A stretch of DNA of 50,797 nt from Natrinema pallidum DSM 3751 (GTDB lineage: Archaea; Halobacteriota; Halobacteria; Halobacteriales; Natrialbaceae). Both the position numbers and the translations under genes were made by a program. The notes under the pieces are model-generated. The model worked only from the letters and a program-made list of their open reading frames with translations. It was not told where the DNA came from and made no database searches. The DNA is taken from positions 39,044-89,840 of the forward strand of contig NZ_AOII01000071.1 of NCBI RefSeq assembly GCF_000337615.1, given 5' to 3'. Below, piece after piece: positions 983 through 42,068 of the stretch. Positions within the stretch are counted from its first letter, which is position 1. Each line of letters opens with the position of its first letter.

Positions 983-1111
983 ATGTGTCGTGGTATCGTG
1001 TGCCTTGCTATTGGCCTTTCAGACTCGTTAAGTCCTTGCGGCCACTGACTCAGATACAATGAATCCGGAACCGCGTCGACAGGAGAGCCAGTCCCGAGTT
1101 GCGATCGAACG

Positions 1112-4075
<2,964 letters not shown>

Positions 4076-24707: not shown

Positions 24708-25490
24708 TCACTCCGCGGCCCGCTCCTTGCCCAGCCCGCCCTCGCCGTGTTCGCGGGTGATCTCGAGGAAGGCGTCCTCAAGACTGCGGGCGTCGCCGGT
24801 CTCGGCACGGGACTTGAGCCGCTCGGGTTCGCCCTCGGCGACGAGTTCGCCGTCGTGGAGCACGCCGATCTCGTCGGCCAGTTCGTCGACGACGGGCAGG
24901 ATGTGCGTCGAGAGGAAGACCGTCATCTCCCGATCGGCGAGTTCGGCGATCGTGTCCCGCATCGTCCGGGCGGCGCGGGGATCGAGTCCGCTCGTCGGCT
25001 CGTCGAGGAAGGCCACCGCCGGTTCGTGGAGGACCGCCTGAATGACGCCGACCTTCTGGCGCATTCCCTTCGAGTAGTCCTCGATTCGCTTGTTCGCATC
25101 CGCGCGCAGGTCGAACCGCTCGAGCAGCGACGCGATGCGCTCGTCGGCCGTGTCCGCGGGCATGTCACGAAGACCGGCGGCGTACTCGAGCTGTTCCCGG
25201 CCGGTGAGTTCGTCGTAGATCGGCGGCTCCTCGGGCAGGTAGCCGATGTGGGGGGTCACCGATTCGCGATCGGCGATGGAGTGGCCCGCAACCCTTGCCG
25301 TCCCGGCGGTCGGTTTCGTCAGCGTCGTCAGCATCCGCATCGTGGTCGTCTTCCCCGCGCCGTTGGGACCGAGAAAGCCATAGACAGTGCCGCGCTCGAC
25401 GGCCATCGTCAGGTCCGAGACGGCGACCGTCTCGCCGTAGCGTTTGGTCAGTCCCTCGGTTTCGATCGCGGGGGCGTCGGCGGCGTTCAT
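24708..25490 (-). CDS. ABC transporter ATP-binding protein
   Basis: A 260-residue ABC ATPase of the export/bacitracin-resistance-like type. Walker A GPNGAGKTT (about 43-51), the Q-loop in HIGYLPEEPP, signature YSKGMRQKVGV, Walker B AVAFLDEPTSGLD and the switch His (LSTHIL) are all present, so it should hydrolyse ATP. No membrane domain is fused. The divergent permease gene at 25723 is the natural partner. The export substrate is unknown. A TATA element (rc of 25512-25520) lies 26 nt before the ATG, consistent with leaderless transcription. Confidence 0.95.
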   Translation of the reverse strand: MNAADAPAIETEGLTKRYGETVAVSDLTMAVERGTVYGFLGPNGAGKTTTMRMLTTLTKPTAGTARVAGHSIADRESVTPHIGYLPEEPPIYDELTGREQLEYAAGLRDMPADTADERIASLLERFDLRADANKRIEDYSKGMRQKVGVIQAVLHEPAVAFLDEPTSGLDPRAARTMRDTIAELADREMTVFLSTHILPVVDELADEIGVLHDGELVAEGEPERLKSRAETGDARSLEDAFLEITREHGEGGLGKERAAE

Positions 25491-25510: not shown

Positions 25511-25521
25511 GTAATTAAATG
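25511..25521 (-). promoter_or_regulatory. TATA-like promoter element of the ABC ATPase gene
   Basis: The reverse strand reads ATTTAATTAC, centred about 26 nt upstream of the ATPase start codon, which is the spacing expected for a leaderless haloarchaeal transcript. Confidence 0.6.
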
Positions 25522-25672
25522 TGTATCACAACGTACAGGAGTCCCGTCGCTGGCCTGCGCACTGACCGGGACTCGGACCGGTGCTCACGACACTGATCGA
25601 GATGCGATGGCACAGCGGACGAGAATGACAGCAATCCAAACGGTTTACTGGGAGCGCGACACGATTCCGACT

Positions 25673-25723
25673 ATGAGACTCGATCGCTCGCTCGCCACAT
25701 CCCCGAAACGAGGTGTTCGCTGA
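25673..25723 (+). CDS. 16-residue leader ORF overlapping the permease start
   Basis: ATG 25673 opens a 16-codon frame (MRLDRSLATSPKRGVR) whose TGA stop, 25721-25723, overlaps the permease ATG as TGATG. A TATA-like TTTACT at 25644-25649 is about 27 nt before this ATG, so the transcript is predicted to begin here and not at the permease. Ribosomes would reach the permease by termination-reinitiation. Whether the peptide has a role of its own is unknown. Confidence 0.5.
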   Translation: MRLDRSLATSPKRGVR

Positions 25724-27390
25724 TGGAGCTCGCCGCCGCCTCGCTGTCGATCACCAAGGCCGAGTTCCGACGGACCACTCGATCGGTCACCGGTAACCGG
25801 ACCAGACTGATCCTGATGGCGGCGGTCGCGCTGTTCGCACTCGGTCCGATCACGGCTGTCGGCGTCCTCTTGCTTCCGGAGTTGGGAGAACACGCCGCCG
25901 ACGGAACGGTCTCCGCGGCCGACGCGGCGACGGTGGCCGACTACGCCACCGGTGCCACGGCGGTCGCGTGGGTGTTTCTGGTCGTCATAGCGGTCATGCG
26001 GACGATCACGACCGTCGCCGACATCGATCAGCCATCCTTTCTCCTGCTATCGACCCCGGTCCGGAACACCGTCGTCGGCGTCGTCGCCGCGGAAACGGCC
26101 CGCTTTGCGGTCTGGCTGCTGCCGTCGACGGTGCTCCTCGCGGCGGCGTTCGCCACTGGAGCGGGAACACCGCTCCCGGTACTCGCGGCACCGCTGTGGG
26201 TCGGAGGTTGCCTGCTCACCGCGTTCCCCGTCGGGTTCGCCGTGGGCATCTGGATACGGCACCTGATCACCGCCTACGAACCGATCGCCCGATACCGGAC
26301 CCTGCTGTTCGCCGCGTTCTGGGTCCTCTACCTCGGGGCGGTCACGACCGGCAGATTCGACGTGATCGCGGAAACGCTGTTCATTCGACTCCGGAGCAGT
26401 CCGCTCGGCTGGCCCGGTCACCTCCTTCTGATCGGCGTCCCCGGCGTCGATCCGTCGGCTCCCGTACTCGGCGGCGCAGCCGTCGGCGCAGTGGTCGTCC
26501 TCGGGCTCGCCTTCGTGGTCGGAACCGCCGGCGCGCGGACACACTGGTTCGCGGACCCGGCCCGAACCGACGACGAGGAACCCAGCTCGGAAACGTCCGA
26601 CGATCGGCTCGACGAACTCCTTTCCGGGACGCTCTCGCGGCCGGTTCGGACGGTCGCGGTAACCGCGATCCGGCGTACGAAGCGCTCCCCGATCCGACTC
26701 ACGTACGCCGGGTACCCCCTGCTCGGCAGCGTCGCGTTCGCCCAACAGATCATCGATGCCGGGACCGTGCCACGATTCGTGGCCGTCCTGCTCTGTCTGT
26801 ACGTCGTCTGGGCCGCCGGCGCGCTGTTCACGCTCAACCCCCTCGGCGATCTCGGGCCGGCGCTGCCCGCCGTCGTCACGTCGACGCTCACCGGCCGACA
26901 GGCGATTCGCGGGCGAATCGTCGCCGGCGCGCTCGTCGGCGTTCCGCTCGCGCTCCTCGTCTCGGTCGTTACGGGCATCGTCAGCCCGCTCTCGCTCGAG
27001 CGCACCGCCGCGCTGGTCGGGGGCACCGTCGTCGGGACGATCGCGACGCCGGCACTGGCGGCCGGGATCGGCTCGGCGTTCCCTCGCTTCGGAAGCGTCA
27101 ACATCACGTCCAACCGCGAGGCCGTGATGCCGAGCAAGACCGCCTTCCTCGTCTACACGCTCGCGATCGCGCTCCCCGCGGTCGCCGCCGTCGTGTTGTC
27201 CCTCGAGGCCCCCGAAGCGATCGCCGGCCTGCTCAGGTCGGTCACCGCGTGGACGCCGCTCCCCGCGGTCTCGCTATCCGCCCGCACGATCACGACCGGT
27301 GCGTGGATCGTCCTGATCGCCGGCTTACTCGCCCCGCCGATCTCCTATCGCTACGCGGTCGAGCGGTTCGACTGGTACGACCTCGAGTGA
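25723..27390 (+). CDS. ABC transporter permease
   Basis: A 555-residue membrane protein with about ten to twelve hydrophobic segments and a long hydrophilic loop near 275-310 (acidic, DPARTDDEEPSSETSDDRLD). The helix layout and the partner ATPase on the opposite strand suggest a large ABC-2-type exporter permease. The N-terminus begins AAASLSITKAEFRRTTRS, an amphipathic cytoplasmic stretch typical of ABC-2 permeases, before helix 1. The substrate is unknown. The divergent ATPase/permease arrangement is unusual, since such pairs are commonly one operon. Confidence 0.82.
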   Translation: MELAAASLSITKAEFRRTTRSVTGNRTRLILMAAVALFALGPITAVGVLLLPELGEHAADGTVSAADAATVADYATGATAVAWVFLVVIAVMRTITTVADIDQPSFLLLSTPVRNTVVGVVAAETARFAVWLLPSTVLLAAAFATGAGTPLPVLAAPLWVGGCLLTAFPVGFAVGIWIRHLITAYEPIARYRTLLFAAFWVLYLGAVTTGRFDVIAETLFIRLRSSPLGWPGHLLLIGVPGVDPSAPVLGGAAVGAVVVLGLAFVVGTAGARTHWFADPARTDDEEPSSETSDDRLDELLSGTLSRPVRTVAVTAIRRTKRSPIRLTYAGYPLLGSVAFAQQIIDAGTVPRFVAVLLCLYVVWAAGALFTLNPLGDLGPALPAVVTSTLTGRQAIRGRIVAGALVGVPLALLVSVVTGIVSPLSLERTAALVGGTVVGTIATPALAAGIGSAFPRFGSVNITSNREAVMPSKTAFLVYTLAIALPAVAAVVLSLEAPEAIAGLLRSVTAWTPLPAVSLSARTITTGAWIVLIAGLLAPPISYRYAVERFDWYDLE

Positions 27391-40718: not shown

Positions 40719-42068
40719 TCAAGCGAGCCACGACGGCGTGACGTAGCCCGAGCCGGTCGCCTGTTCCGGCGGCCAGATGACCTCTTGTCTTCCATCGCCG
40801 TCATCGCCCTCCTGCCACTGGAAATAAACCGTCTCCGCCTTGTTGTAGACGAGGTCGTGGGCGACCGGAGTGCCCGCGACTTCGGCCTCCCGATCGTAGA
40901 ACTCGACCGTGCCGGCGGTCCCGGTAAAGGACACGTCCTCGAGCGCGGGGACCAGTTCCTCGTGACCGAACGTTTCCTCGTCTTCGACCGCCGCTGCGAA
41001 CAACGTGATCGCATCGTACGTGTGGTAGCCGGTATACACGGGGTTCGAGCCCGCGAACGTGTTCCGATATGACTCGACGAAGGGTTGAGTAGCGTCGGTT
41101 ATCGTGCTGTTCGCCGTGGCGCTGCTTTGACCGATGGCGTACTGACACTCCCCGCCGACCAGGTCGTAGTACGCCGGGAGCTGCATCGGGACGTGGATTC
41201 CGCCGAAGTCGAACTCGCGTTCGGGAACCCCCCAGTCCATCAGGGCGCTGGTTCCGGTGTGGGCGGTCGTGATGAAGACCGCGTCGGCATCCGCCGCTTC
41301 GACCTCGTCGTACCGGCTCTCGAAGCTGTCTATCGACGGCGGATACCGCTCCTCGAGCGCGACGTCGACGCCGGTCTCCCCGATCCGGTCCTGATAGACG
41401 CGCCACGGTTTTTCCGTCCACTCGTAGTCCTCGGCGAGGAGCGCGATCGAGTCCCAGCCGAGTTCGTCGGCCATGTCGGTCAGGAAGTCGATCTGCATGC
41501 GGCCGTAGTCGATATCGCTGTTCGGTCCGGCGCGGAAATGGTACTTGTACTCGTCGTACTGCTCGTGGACCAGCCGACTGACTTCGGTCGTCGCCGCGCC
41601 GGAGGTCAGGTGGATCGTCTCCTGTTCCGCGATGTCGTCGATGATACCCAGCAACGCCTCGCTCGCGAACACGCCGGTCGTTACGTCGACGTCTTCCTCG
41701 AGAATGAGCCGCTGGTACTGGCGGCGCGCCTCCAGCGGACTCGAGTTCGTATCCCCCAAAACGAGTTCGACATCACGGCCGAGGATCCCGTCGCCGTCGT
41801 TGAGATGGCTGACCGCGAGCGTTGCGGCCCGGTACATCGACCGACCGATCATGTCGCTGTCCGGGTTCGGTGCCAACAGCCCGATTCTGACCGGCGTCGT
41901 GCCGTCGCTCTCCCCGACGACCGAGCCGGCCGTCTCGAGACAGCCGGCACCCGCCGTCCCCGCCGCGACTCCACCCGTCGTTTGCAGGAATCGTCGTCGG
42001 TTCACGCCTCGAGAGCCCGGACTCGCCGTGGCCCGTGAACCGAGTCCCGTCGCAGTGTCATCAGACAT
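40719..42068 (-). CDS. Leu/Ile/Val-type substrate-binding lipoprotein, chemotaxis type suspected
   Basis: A 449-residue periplasmic-binding-protein-like lipoprotein. The Tat motif NRRRFLQTT and lipobox GAGC (Cys43) anchor it outside the membrane. The body follows the type I ligand-binding (LivJ) fold: VRIGLLAPNPDSDMIGRSMY, LAVSHLNDGDGILGRDVELV, SEALLGIIDDIAEQETIHLT and DYEWTEKPWRVYQDRI. No ABC permease or ATPase gene is near. A close paralogue and a chemotaxis transducer follow, so it may present amino acids to a transducer like BasB does. A TATA-like AATTAAG (rc near 42086-42094) is about 22 nt upstream. Confidence 0.9.
   Translation of the reverse strand: MSDDTATGLGSRATASPGSRGVNRRRFLQTTGGVAAGTAGAGCLETAGSVVGESDGTTPVRIGLLAPNPDSDMIGRSMYRAATLAVSHLNDGDGILGRDVELVLGDTNSSPLEARRQYQRLILEEDVDVTTGVFASEALLGIIDDIAEQETIHLTSGAATTEVSRLVHEQYDEYKYHFRAGPNSDIDYGRMQIDFLTDMADELGWDSIALLAEDYEWTEKPWRVYQDRIGETGVDVALEERYPPSIDSFESRYDEVEAADADAVFITTAHTGTSALMDWGVPEREFDFGGIHVPMQLPAYYDLVGGECQYAIGQSSATANSTITDATQPFVESYRNTFAGSNPVYTGYHTYDAITLFAAAVEDEETFGHEELVPALEDVSFTGTAGTVEFYDREAEVAGTPVAHDLVYNKAETVYFQWQEGDDGDGRQEVIWPPEQATGSGYVTPSWLA

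Follow-up and report, generated by a model that had tools for sequence, protein, structure and literature searches.

A conserved mini-ORF, predicted to be leaderless, overlaps the start of a putative ABC-2 type permease gene in Natrialbaceae and probably delivers ribosomes to it

In Natrinema pallidum DSM 3751, the gene for a putative ABC-2 type permease is directly preceded by a mini-ORF of 16 codons, and across Natrialbaceae this layout keeps its promoter spacing, its reading frame and its overlap with the permease start, whereas its peptide is free to change. We propose, with a probability of roughly 85%, that the mini-ORF acts as a leaderless cistron from which ribosomes are passed on to the permease by termination-reinitiation. 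The mRNA would start at the mini-ORF ATG or a few bases from it; ribosomes would initiate directly on the 5′-terminal AUG, translate 16 codons that are unimportant in themselves, and terminate at the TGA whose last base is the first of the permease ATG. Beneath the terminating ribosome, the GAGGTG motif would then pair with 16S rRNA, and the ribosome would restart on the permease. As to its origin, the mini-ORF would have replaced an upstream ATPase gene as ribosome donor after the two genes became separated in Natrialbaceae. The features concerned are collected in Table 1; the window is the whole stretch of DNA analyzed, 50,797 nucleotides of contig NZ_AOII01000071.1.

Table 1. Predicted features of the permease and uvrA loci, in window coordinates
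Feature	Coordinates	Strand	Details
Promoter, BRE-like CCAAAC plus TATA-like TTTACT	25636–25649	+	TTTACT at 25644–25649; its first T is 29 nt 5′ of the mini-ORF start
Mini-ORF with predicted leaderless spacing	25673–25723	+	16 codons plus TGA, MRLDRSLATSPKRGVR; ATG at 25673, TGA at 25721–25723; direct reading of the window sequence
Shine-Dalgarno motif GAGGTG inside the mini-ORF	25710–25715	+	7 nt 5′ of the permease ATG
TGATG overlap of the mini-ORF stop with the permease start	25721–25725	+	1 nt in common: the A of the TGA is the first base of the permease ATG (25723–25725)
Permease of ABC-2 type, downstream cistron	25723–27390	+	555 aa; fold comparison of the predicted model
Divergent ABC ATPase gene	24708–25490	−	Pfam ABC_tran, E 2.8e-29
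TATA-like TTTAAT of the divergent ATPase gene	25514–25519	−	29 nt 5′ of the ATPase ATG
Second mini-ORF of the same layout, before uvrA	1059–1115	+	18 codons; ATGA overlap with the uvrA start
TTAAG box of the uvrA mini-ORF	1028–1032	+	mini-ORF ATG at 1059
uvrA, downstream cistron	1112–4075	+

The initial annotation had described a TATA-like box, a short ORF and a TGATG overlap with the permease, and direct reading of the window found the coordinates of all three to be exact. The predicted message start lies 50 nt from the permease ATG, and the encoded peptide contains five basic residues and one acidic residue. The Shine-Dalgarno match inside the mini-ORF had been overlooked in that annotation. 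The sequence GGATCACCTCCT, which we take to be the site expected at the 16S rRNA 3′ end, occurs once per genome in three of four congeneric genomes (putative 16S rRNA 3′ ends), and a search of the draft genome of the strain itself returned no copy. Two other gene models were rejected. The mini-ORF cannot be an N-terminal extension of the permease, because its frame differs from that of the permease and because many relatives carry an in-frame stop (the TGA of GGTGATCG) immediately 5′ of the permease start. A longer ORF opening at an ATG at −98 is ruled out as well, since the promoter box would fall inside it and since its distance moves by single bases among relatives (−98, −97, −94).

A genus search found a permease orthologue in all 29 genomes, that of the strain included, and 57 loci, from Natrialbaceae and from other haloarchaea, came out of a scan of genome contigs. 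Among named relatives, Natrinema gari and N. altunense are the nearest, with permeases that are 92% identical. After removal of duplicates, 53 loci with at least 50% identity were kept. Named Natrinema and Haloterrigena records taken to be of the same species as the genus set (L034 to L045, L063) were dropped, as were, before any counts, a fragment (L033), two distant paralogues (L003, L004), one locus in which no ATPase was found (L076) and the operonic loci below 50% identity. A single coupled mini-ORF of 14 to 23 codons, reaching the permease start, is present in 51 of the 53 loci; L061 and L066 were excluded from the 51-row statistics. Manual curation shifted the permease start of L067 upstream by one codon and set those mini-ORF starts that do not lie at −50. 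The mini-ORF opens with ATG in 50 loci and with GTG in L021, and in all 51 single-ORF rows it overlaps the permease start by 1 or 4 nt, as in termination-reinitiation pairs. Five forms of this overlap occur (TGATG in 32 rows, ATGA in 8, GTGA in 8, TAGTG in 2 and TAATG in 1), and it was kept across 11 changes on the tree, including changes of the permease start from ATG to GTG.

Natronosalvus, the genus of L061, shows variants of this layout. Orthologues were found in seven of its eight genomes, the eighth giving only a match of 28% identity, and two of the loci (L181, L187) apparently repeat L061 and L066. One further locus (L183) has a single mini-ORF of 15 codons ending in GTGA, and three (L184, L185 and L186) have single mini-ORFs of 46, 54 and 53 codons ending in TGATG; in each of these four the box lies 30 nt 5′ of the mini-ORF ATG. 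L061 (= L181) and L182 carry two mini-ORFs in tandem, of 26 plus 14 and 26 plus 28 codons, respectively, with ATGA junctions both between the two and to the permease, and with the box 30 to 31 nt 5′ of the first mini-ORF ATG. With the five new Natronosalvus loci included, a coupled mini-ORF or tandem pair is found in 57 of 58 Natrialbaceae orthologues; the sole exception among the 58 rows is L066, a metagenome bin in which no clean overlap was seen. Conservation of the mini-ORF and its overlap had been set beforehand as a test of the initial annotation, and on this point its claim was borne out. The same conservation rules out a chance ORF, and it is conservation that carries the case for the mini-ORF as more than chance.

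The promoter is fixed relative to the mini-ORF. TTTA stands exactly 29 nt 5′ of the mini-ORF start in 46 of the 51 orthologue rows, and two further rows have it 30 or 34 nt away (34 nt in locus L023); this strongly backs the earlier suggestion that the box is spaced for a start at the short ORF. When TTTA, TTAA and TATA were sought 20 to 39 nt 5′ of the permease start, none was present in any of the 51 rows. Since a box stands at leaderless distance from the mini-ORF and none does so from the permease, this box appears to serve a message with its 5′ end at the mini-ORF, and box spacing thus suggests that transcription starts at the mini-ORF ATG or within a few bases of it. The divergent ATPase gene has a TATA-like box of its own, 29 to 32 nt 5′ of its ATG in 39 of 45 scored rows. 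In addition, a GACA element is found at positions 25627 to 25630 (+ strand) of the window; 40 of 51 orthologues have it 16 to 17 nt 5′ of the box, and it may belong to the promoter or bind a regulator.

The reading frame of the leader is constrained. The distance from mini-ORF start to permease start belongs to a single class modulo 3 in all 51 rows, although the tree requires eight changes of leader length (13 with Natronosalvus included); by simple arithmetic, with even classes and changes taken as independent, eight frame-keeping changes out of eight would arise by chance about once in 6,500. By comparison, the noncoding distance from ATPase start to box is spread 21/9/15 over the modulo-3 classes in 45 rows. 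In-frame stops are absent from the leaders (0 of 787 codons; the two alternative frames have 7 and 25 stops, each in 736 codons). Taken alone, this absence is weak evidence; when leaders are shuffled at constant length, 82% of trials still reach the overlap, and 27% do so if the frame is randomized as well.

The peptide, in turn, shows no such constraint. Codon-position counts were made on the 38 of 51 rows that have a 50-nt leader, and in the leader body the mean number of changes per site was 9.3, 8.6 and 10.5 at positions 1, 2 and 3, compared with 5.6, 4.1 and 9.2 across 30 nt of the permease. Slow sites include the start codon, the GGTG motif and the overlap, whereas few parts change faster than the leader body; in the GGTG motif of these 38 rows, both of the first Gs are unchanged, the T changed three times and the final G once. 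It therefore seems, from these substitution patterns, that the act of translating is kept and its product is not; a conserved ORF need not imply a conserved peptide.

These data also bear on a regulatory role of the mini-ORF, as a uORF or attenuator in which the speed or stalling of ribosomes within the 16 codons would sense a metabolite, an amino acid or salt and gate the permease. Leaderless cysteine-rich short ORFs are described as attenuators in mycobacteria, in a review and in PMC4633059, and any coupled donor could be gated. However, no codon run or stall motif common to the 53 peptides was found by eye, the rate of change at codon positions 1 and 2 is close to that at position 3, and the mini-ORF ranges from 14 to 54 codons in length, so that we regard attenuation as unlikely.

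Ribosome delivery by termination-reinitiation agrees with what has been reported for Haloferax volcanii in the portions of the literature compared here. Leaderless transcripts make up 72% of the protein-coding ones in this species (PMC4983044), and initiation was not driven by a Shine-Dalgarno motif in a 5′-UTR (PMC3986360). All nine overlapping or closely spaced gene pairs tested showed strict coupling, to which the motif contributed to a variable extent (PMC6728339); for three pairs, coupling was lost or near zero at gaps of 22 to 23 nt (PMC10666635). Together, these leaderless, Shine-Dalgarno and coupling results make an overlapping leaderless mini-ORF a plausible route for ribosomes to the permease, and dependence of the permease on the mini-ORF would be expected from the coupling and Shine-Dalgarno results. 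The coupling experiments in H. volcanii used upstream genes longer than the mini-ORF; the last 15 nt of the upstream stretch have been shown to suffice only in Escherichia coli, in a reporter fusion (PMC10666635), and in Sulfolobus solfataricus one adjacent stop/start pair with a Shine-Dalgarno motif was uncoupled (cited in PMC6728339). Some initiation at the permease may be independent of the mini-ORF.

Were independent initiation the whole explanation, the permease would be started by its own Shine-Dalgarno motif within a 50-nt 5′-UTR and the ORF would be incidental. A Shine-Dalgarno-like motif is indeed present in nearly all orthologue rows, but the behavior of such a motif in the H. volcanii 5′-UTR (PMC3986360) speaks against this mechanism, which moreover leaves unexplained why leader length changes in threes, why the distance from box to mini-ORF ATG is fixed at 29 nt, and why the overlap is kept despite changing start codons. 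We consider it quite improbable. It is very improbable that a DNA operator or an RNA structure constrains the region and that the ORF is a by-product: the GACA element would fit an operator, yet the leader body changes too fast, the leader folding z-score is +0.66, none of six predicted pairs was changed on both sides in 20 aligned leaders, and the one Rfam match at E ≤1 lies far under the gathering score and inside the permease. Neither a known riboswitch family nor a covarying leader structure was found by Rfam search, folding and comparison of the 20 aligned leaders. That the 16-residue peptide is a functional microprotein of the transporter is scarcely credible, for although in 57 of 58 loci the mini-ORF adjoins the permease, the first two codon positions show no excess conservation outside the Shine-Dalgarno bases, and tandem and 46- to 54-codon versions exist in Natronosalvus. 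The initial annotation had also spoken of a form of control; this part found no support, with peptide and codons unconserved, no structured leader RNA found, and nothing seen that points to a signal.

The permease was assigned to the ABC-2 type by fold comparison. No Pfam or NCBIfam match was found at E 0.001, and profile searches with 34 members of the permease family gave only stray weak matches. The AlphaFold2 model has a mean pLDDT of 79.4; its best PDB match is a mycobacterial efflux pump (8k1n; E 4.6e-3, probability 1.00), followed by NosFY, ABCG2 and Wzm chains with some unrelated membrane proteins interspersed, and no PDB match reaches E 0.001. The divergently oriented ABC ATPase is the probable partner of the permease. 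Among 77 loci in the ATPase tree, the ATPase gene is divergent from the permease in 48, upstream on the same strand in 27 and convergent in 2; it lies downstream on the opposite strand in the six Natronosalvus loci that have the layout and in L187. In L057 and L067 the mini-ORF is present and the DNA examined gave no ATPase match.

In 20 loci, namely 19 from more distant named haloarchaea and a paralogue in the strain's own genome (L002), the ATPase gene immediately precedes the permease on the same strand. Its stop codon overlaps a possible start of the permease in 17 of them and comes within 1 nt of one in the remaining three; several have a second in-frame permease start within a few codons, which leaves the true start unsure. 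Seven further paralogues in the genus have the same order; in the eight paralogous pairs (L002, L091 to L097), the junction reads GTGACGATG in six. In the tree, the 48 divergent loci form one group (support 94) that adjoins the two convergent loci, and a branch with support 83 separates the 27 operonic loci from the rest. Where the ATPase gene is elsewhere, the mini-ORF occupies the place of an ATPase gene that ends at the permease start. The simplest history would be a coupled operon, separation of the genes in Natrialbaceae, and takeover by the mini-ORF as a substitute donor; the direction of this history is tentative, because the ATPase tree is a quick, midpoint-rooted one with supports of 83 to 94 on the relevant branches. 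This suggests that a natural answer for a lone haloarchaeal gene in need of reinitiation is to carry a disposable donor ORF.

Several known systems resemble the arrangement, as judged from the parts of the sources compared. In mycobacteria, leaderless small ORFs coupled by RTGA are overrepresented (Shell et al. 2015, PMC4633059); there, too, the stop overlaps the start of the next gene, and one shown example keeps position and coupling but not the peptide. The mycobacterial type is bacterial and defined by RTGA, whereas the permease mini-ORFs also use TGATG, TAGTG and TAATG; 16 of the 51 rows have RTGA but the window itself has TGATG, so that its mini-ORF works alike and is not classed as the mycobacterial type. 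The haloarchaeal set differs further in comprising 58 loci with a frame test and in being tied to separation from an operon partner. Haloarchaeal termination-reinitiation pairs (Huber et al. 2019, PMC6728339; 2023, PMC10666635), from the same domain, share the overlap of 1 or 4 nt and the Shine-Dalgarno motif inside the upstream ORF, which is frequent in such pairs and not required. Their upstream member, however, is a protein gene, in contrast to a mini-ORF of 14 to 54 codons with no conserved product and at a predicted 5′ end.

The uORFs in 5′-UTRs of H. volcanii (Babski et al. 2016, PMC4983044) are comparable in size, with 15 to 31 codons, and one stands before an ABC transport gene. Those 5′-UTRs are 150 to 250 nt long, versus 50 nt at the permease, and the uORF products have low isoelectric points, unlike the predominantly basic peptide described above; the part of that paper compared mentions neither coupling nor conservation. 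A short ORF that serves only to drive the next gene is discussed in the compared part of a 2025 review (PMC12548453), where it is engineered or proposed from bacterial data, whereas the mini-ORF described here is natural and conserved in archaea. As far as the accessible text of the open-licence full-text literature goes, we found no account of a comparable mini-cistron, leaderless and conserved, in archaea. In haloarchaea, coupling of full genes is well described; no description was found of a dedicated leaderless mini-ORF acting as the donor.

A second mini-ORF of the same layout precedes a gene in the window that we take to be uvrA from its N-terminal sequence. Within the genus, 28 of 29 genomes have it; outside the genus, so do 17 of the 19 Natrialbaceae genomes with a uvrA match (a twentieth had no match), which gives 45 of 48 Natrialbaceae uvrA loci. 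The exception within the genus is L133 (genome G027), whose leader has no overlapping ORF. The mini-ORF opens with ATG or GTG at −53, −59, −50, −47 or −44, all one class modulo 3, and in the 42 rows with an exact CGTTAAG the box is 30 to 31 nt upstream. In these rows, 670 codons contain no in-frame stop; the other two frames contain 8 and 0 stops in 628 codons each. The uvrA mini-ORF of the window has no clear Shine-Dalgarno motif. In ten genomes of other families, some ORF overlaps the uvrA start in four, at varied distances, and none does so in six, so that there is no consistent uvrA version there.

It is a tentative and still doubtful generalization that haloarchaea commonly use leaderless mini-cistrons to start genes dependent on termination-reinitiation, that a throwaway 5′ ORF replaces the donor after an operon breaks up, and that the permease and uvrA are two instances of a class missed by gene callers. 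Such a class would predict unannotated translated ORFs before ordinary genes and would provide a natural bicistronic expression element for haloarchaea. Genome-wide, the strict pattern TTTA-N23..27-ATG-N15..45-GGDG-N5-TGATG has one match in the 3.9-Mb genome, at the permease leader, and a reversed control pattern also has one match, so that on its own the strict-pattern match is weak; the RTGA form of the pattern gave one other match (C14:52805-52889, minus strand). A scan for the layout in 409,751 bases of the strain's genome, covering 229 genes by a conservative filter, counted TATA-like boxes 6 times at the six right distances and 20 times at the other 58. It returned five candidates, namely the permease leader, uvrA, window position 42061, L099 and L107. 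The candidate at 42061 is false, as an in-frame ATG just upstream is the likelier gene start. The candidate in L107 (14173-15407, minus strand) is a 39-codon ORF before a gene of 372 aa read as starting with GTG, and that in L099, near position 3183 on the minus strand, may have the same layout.
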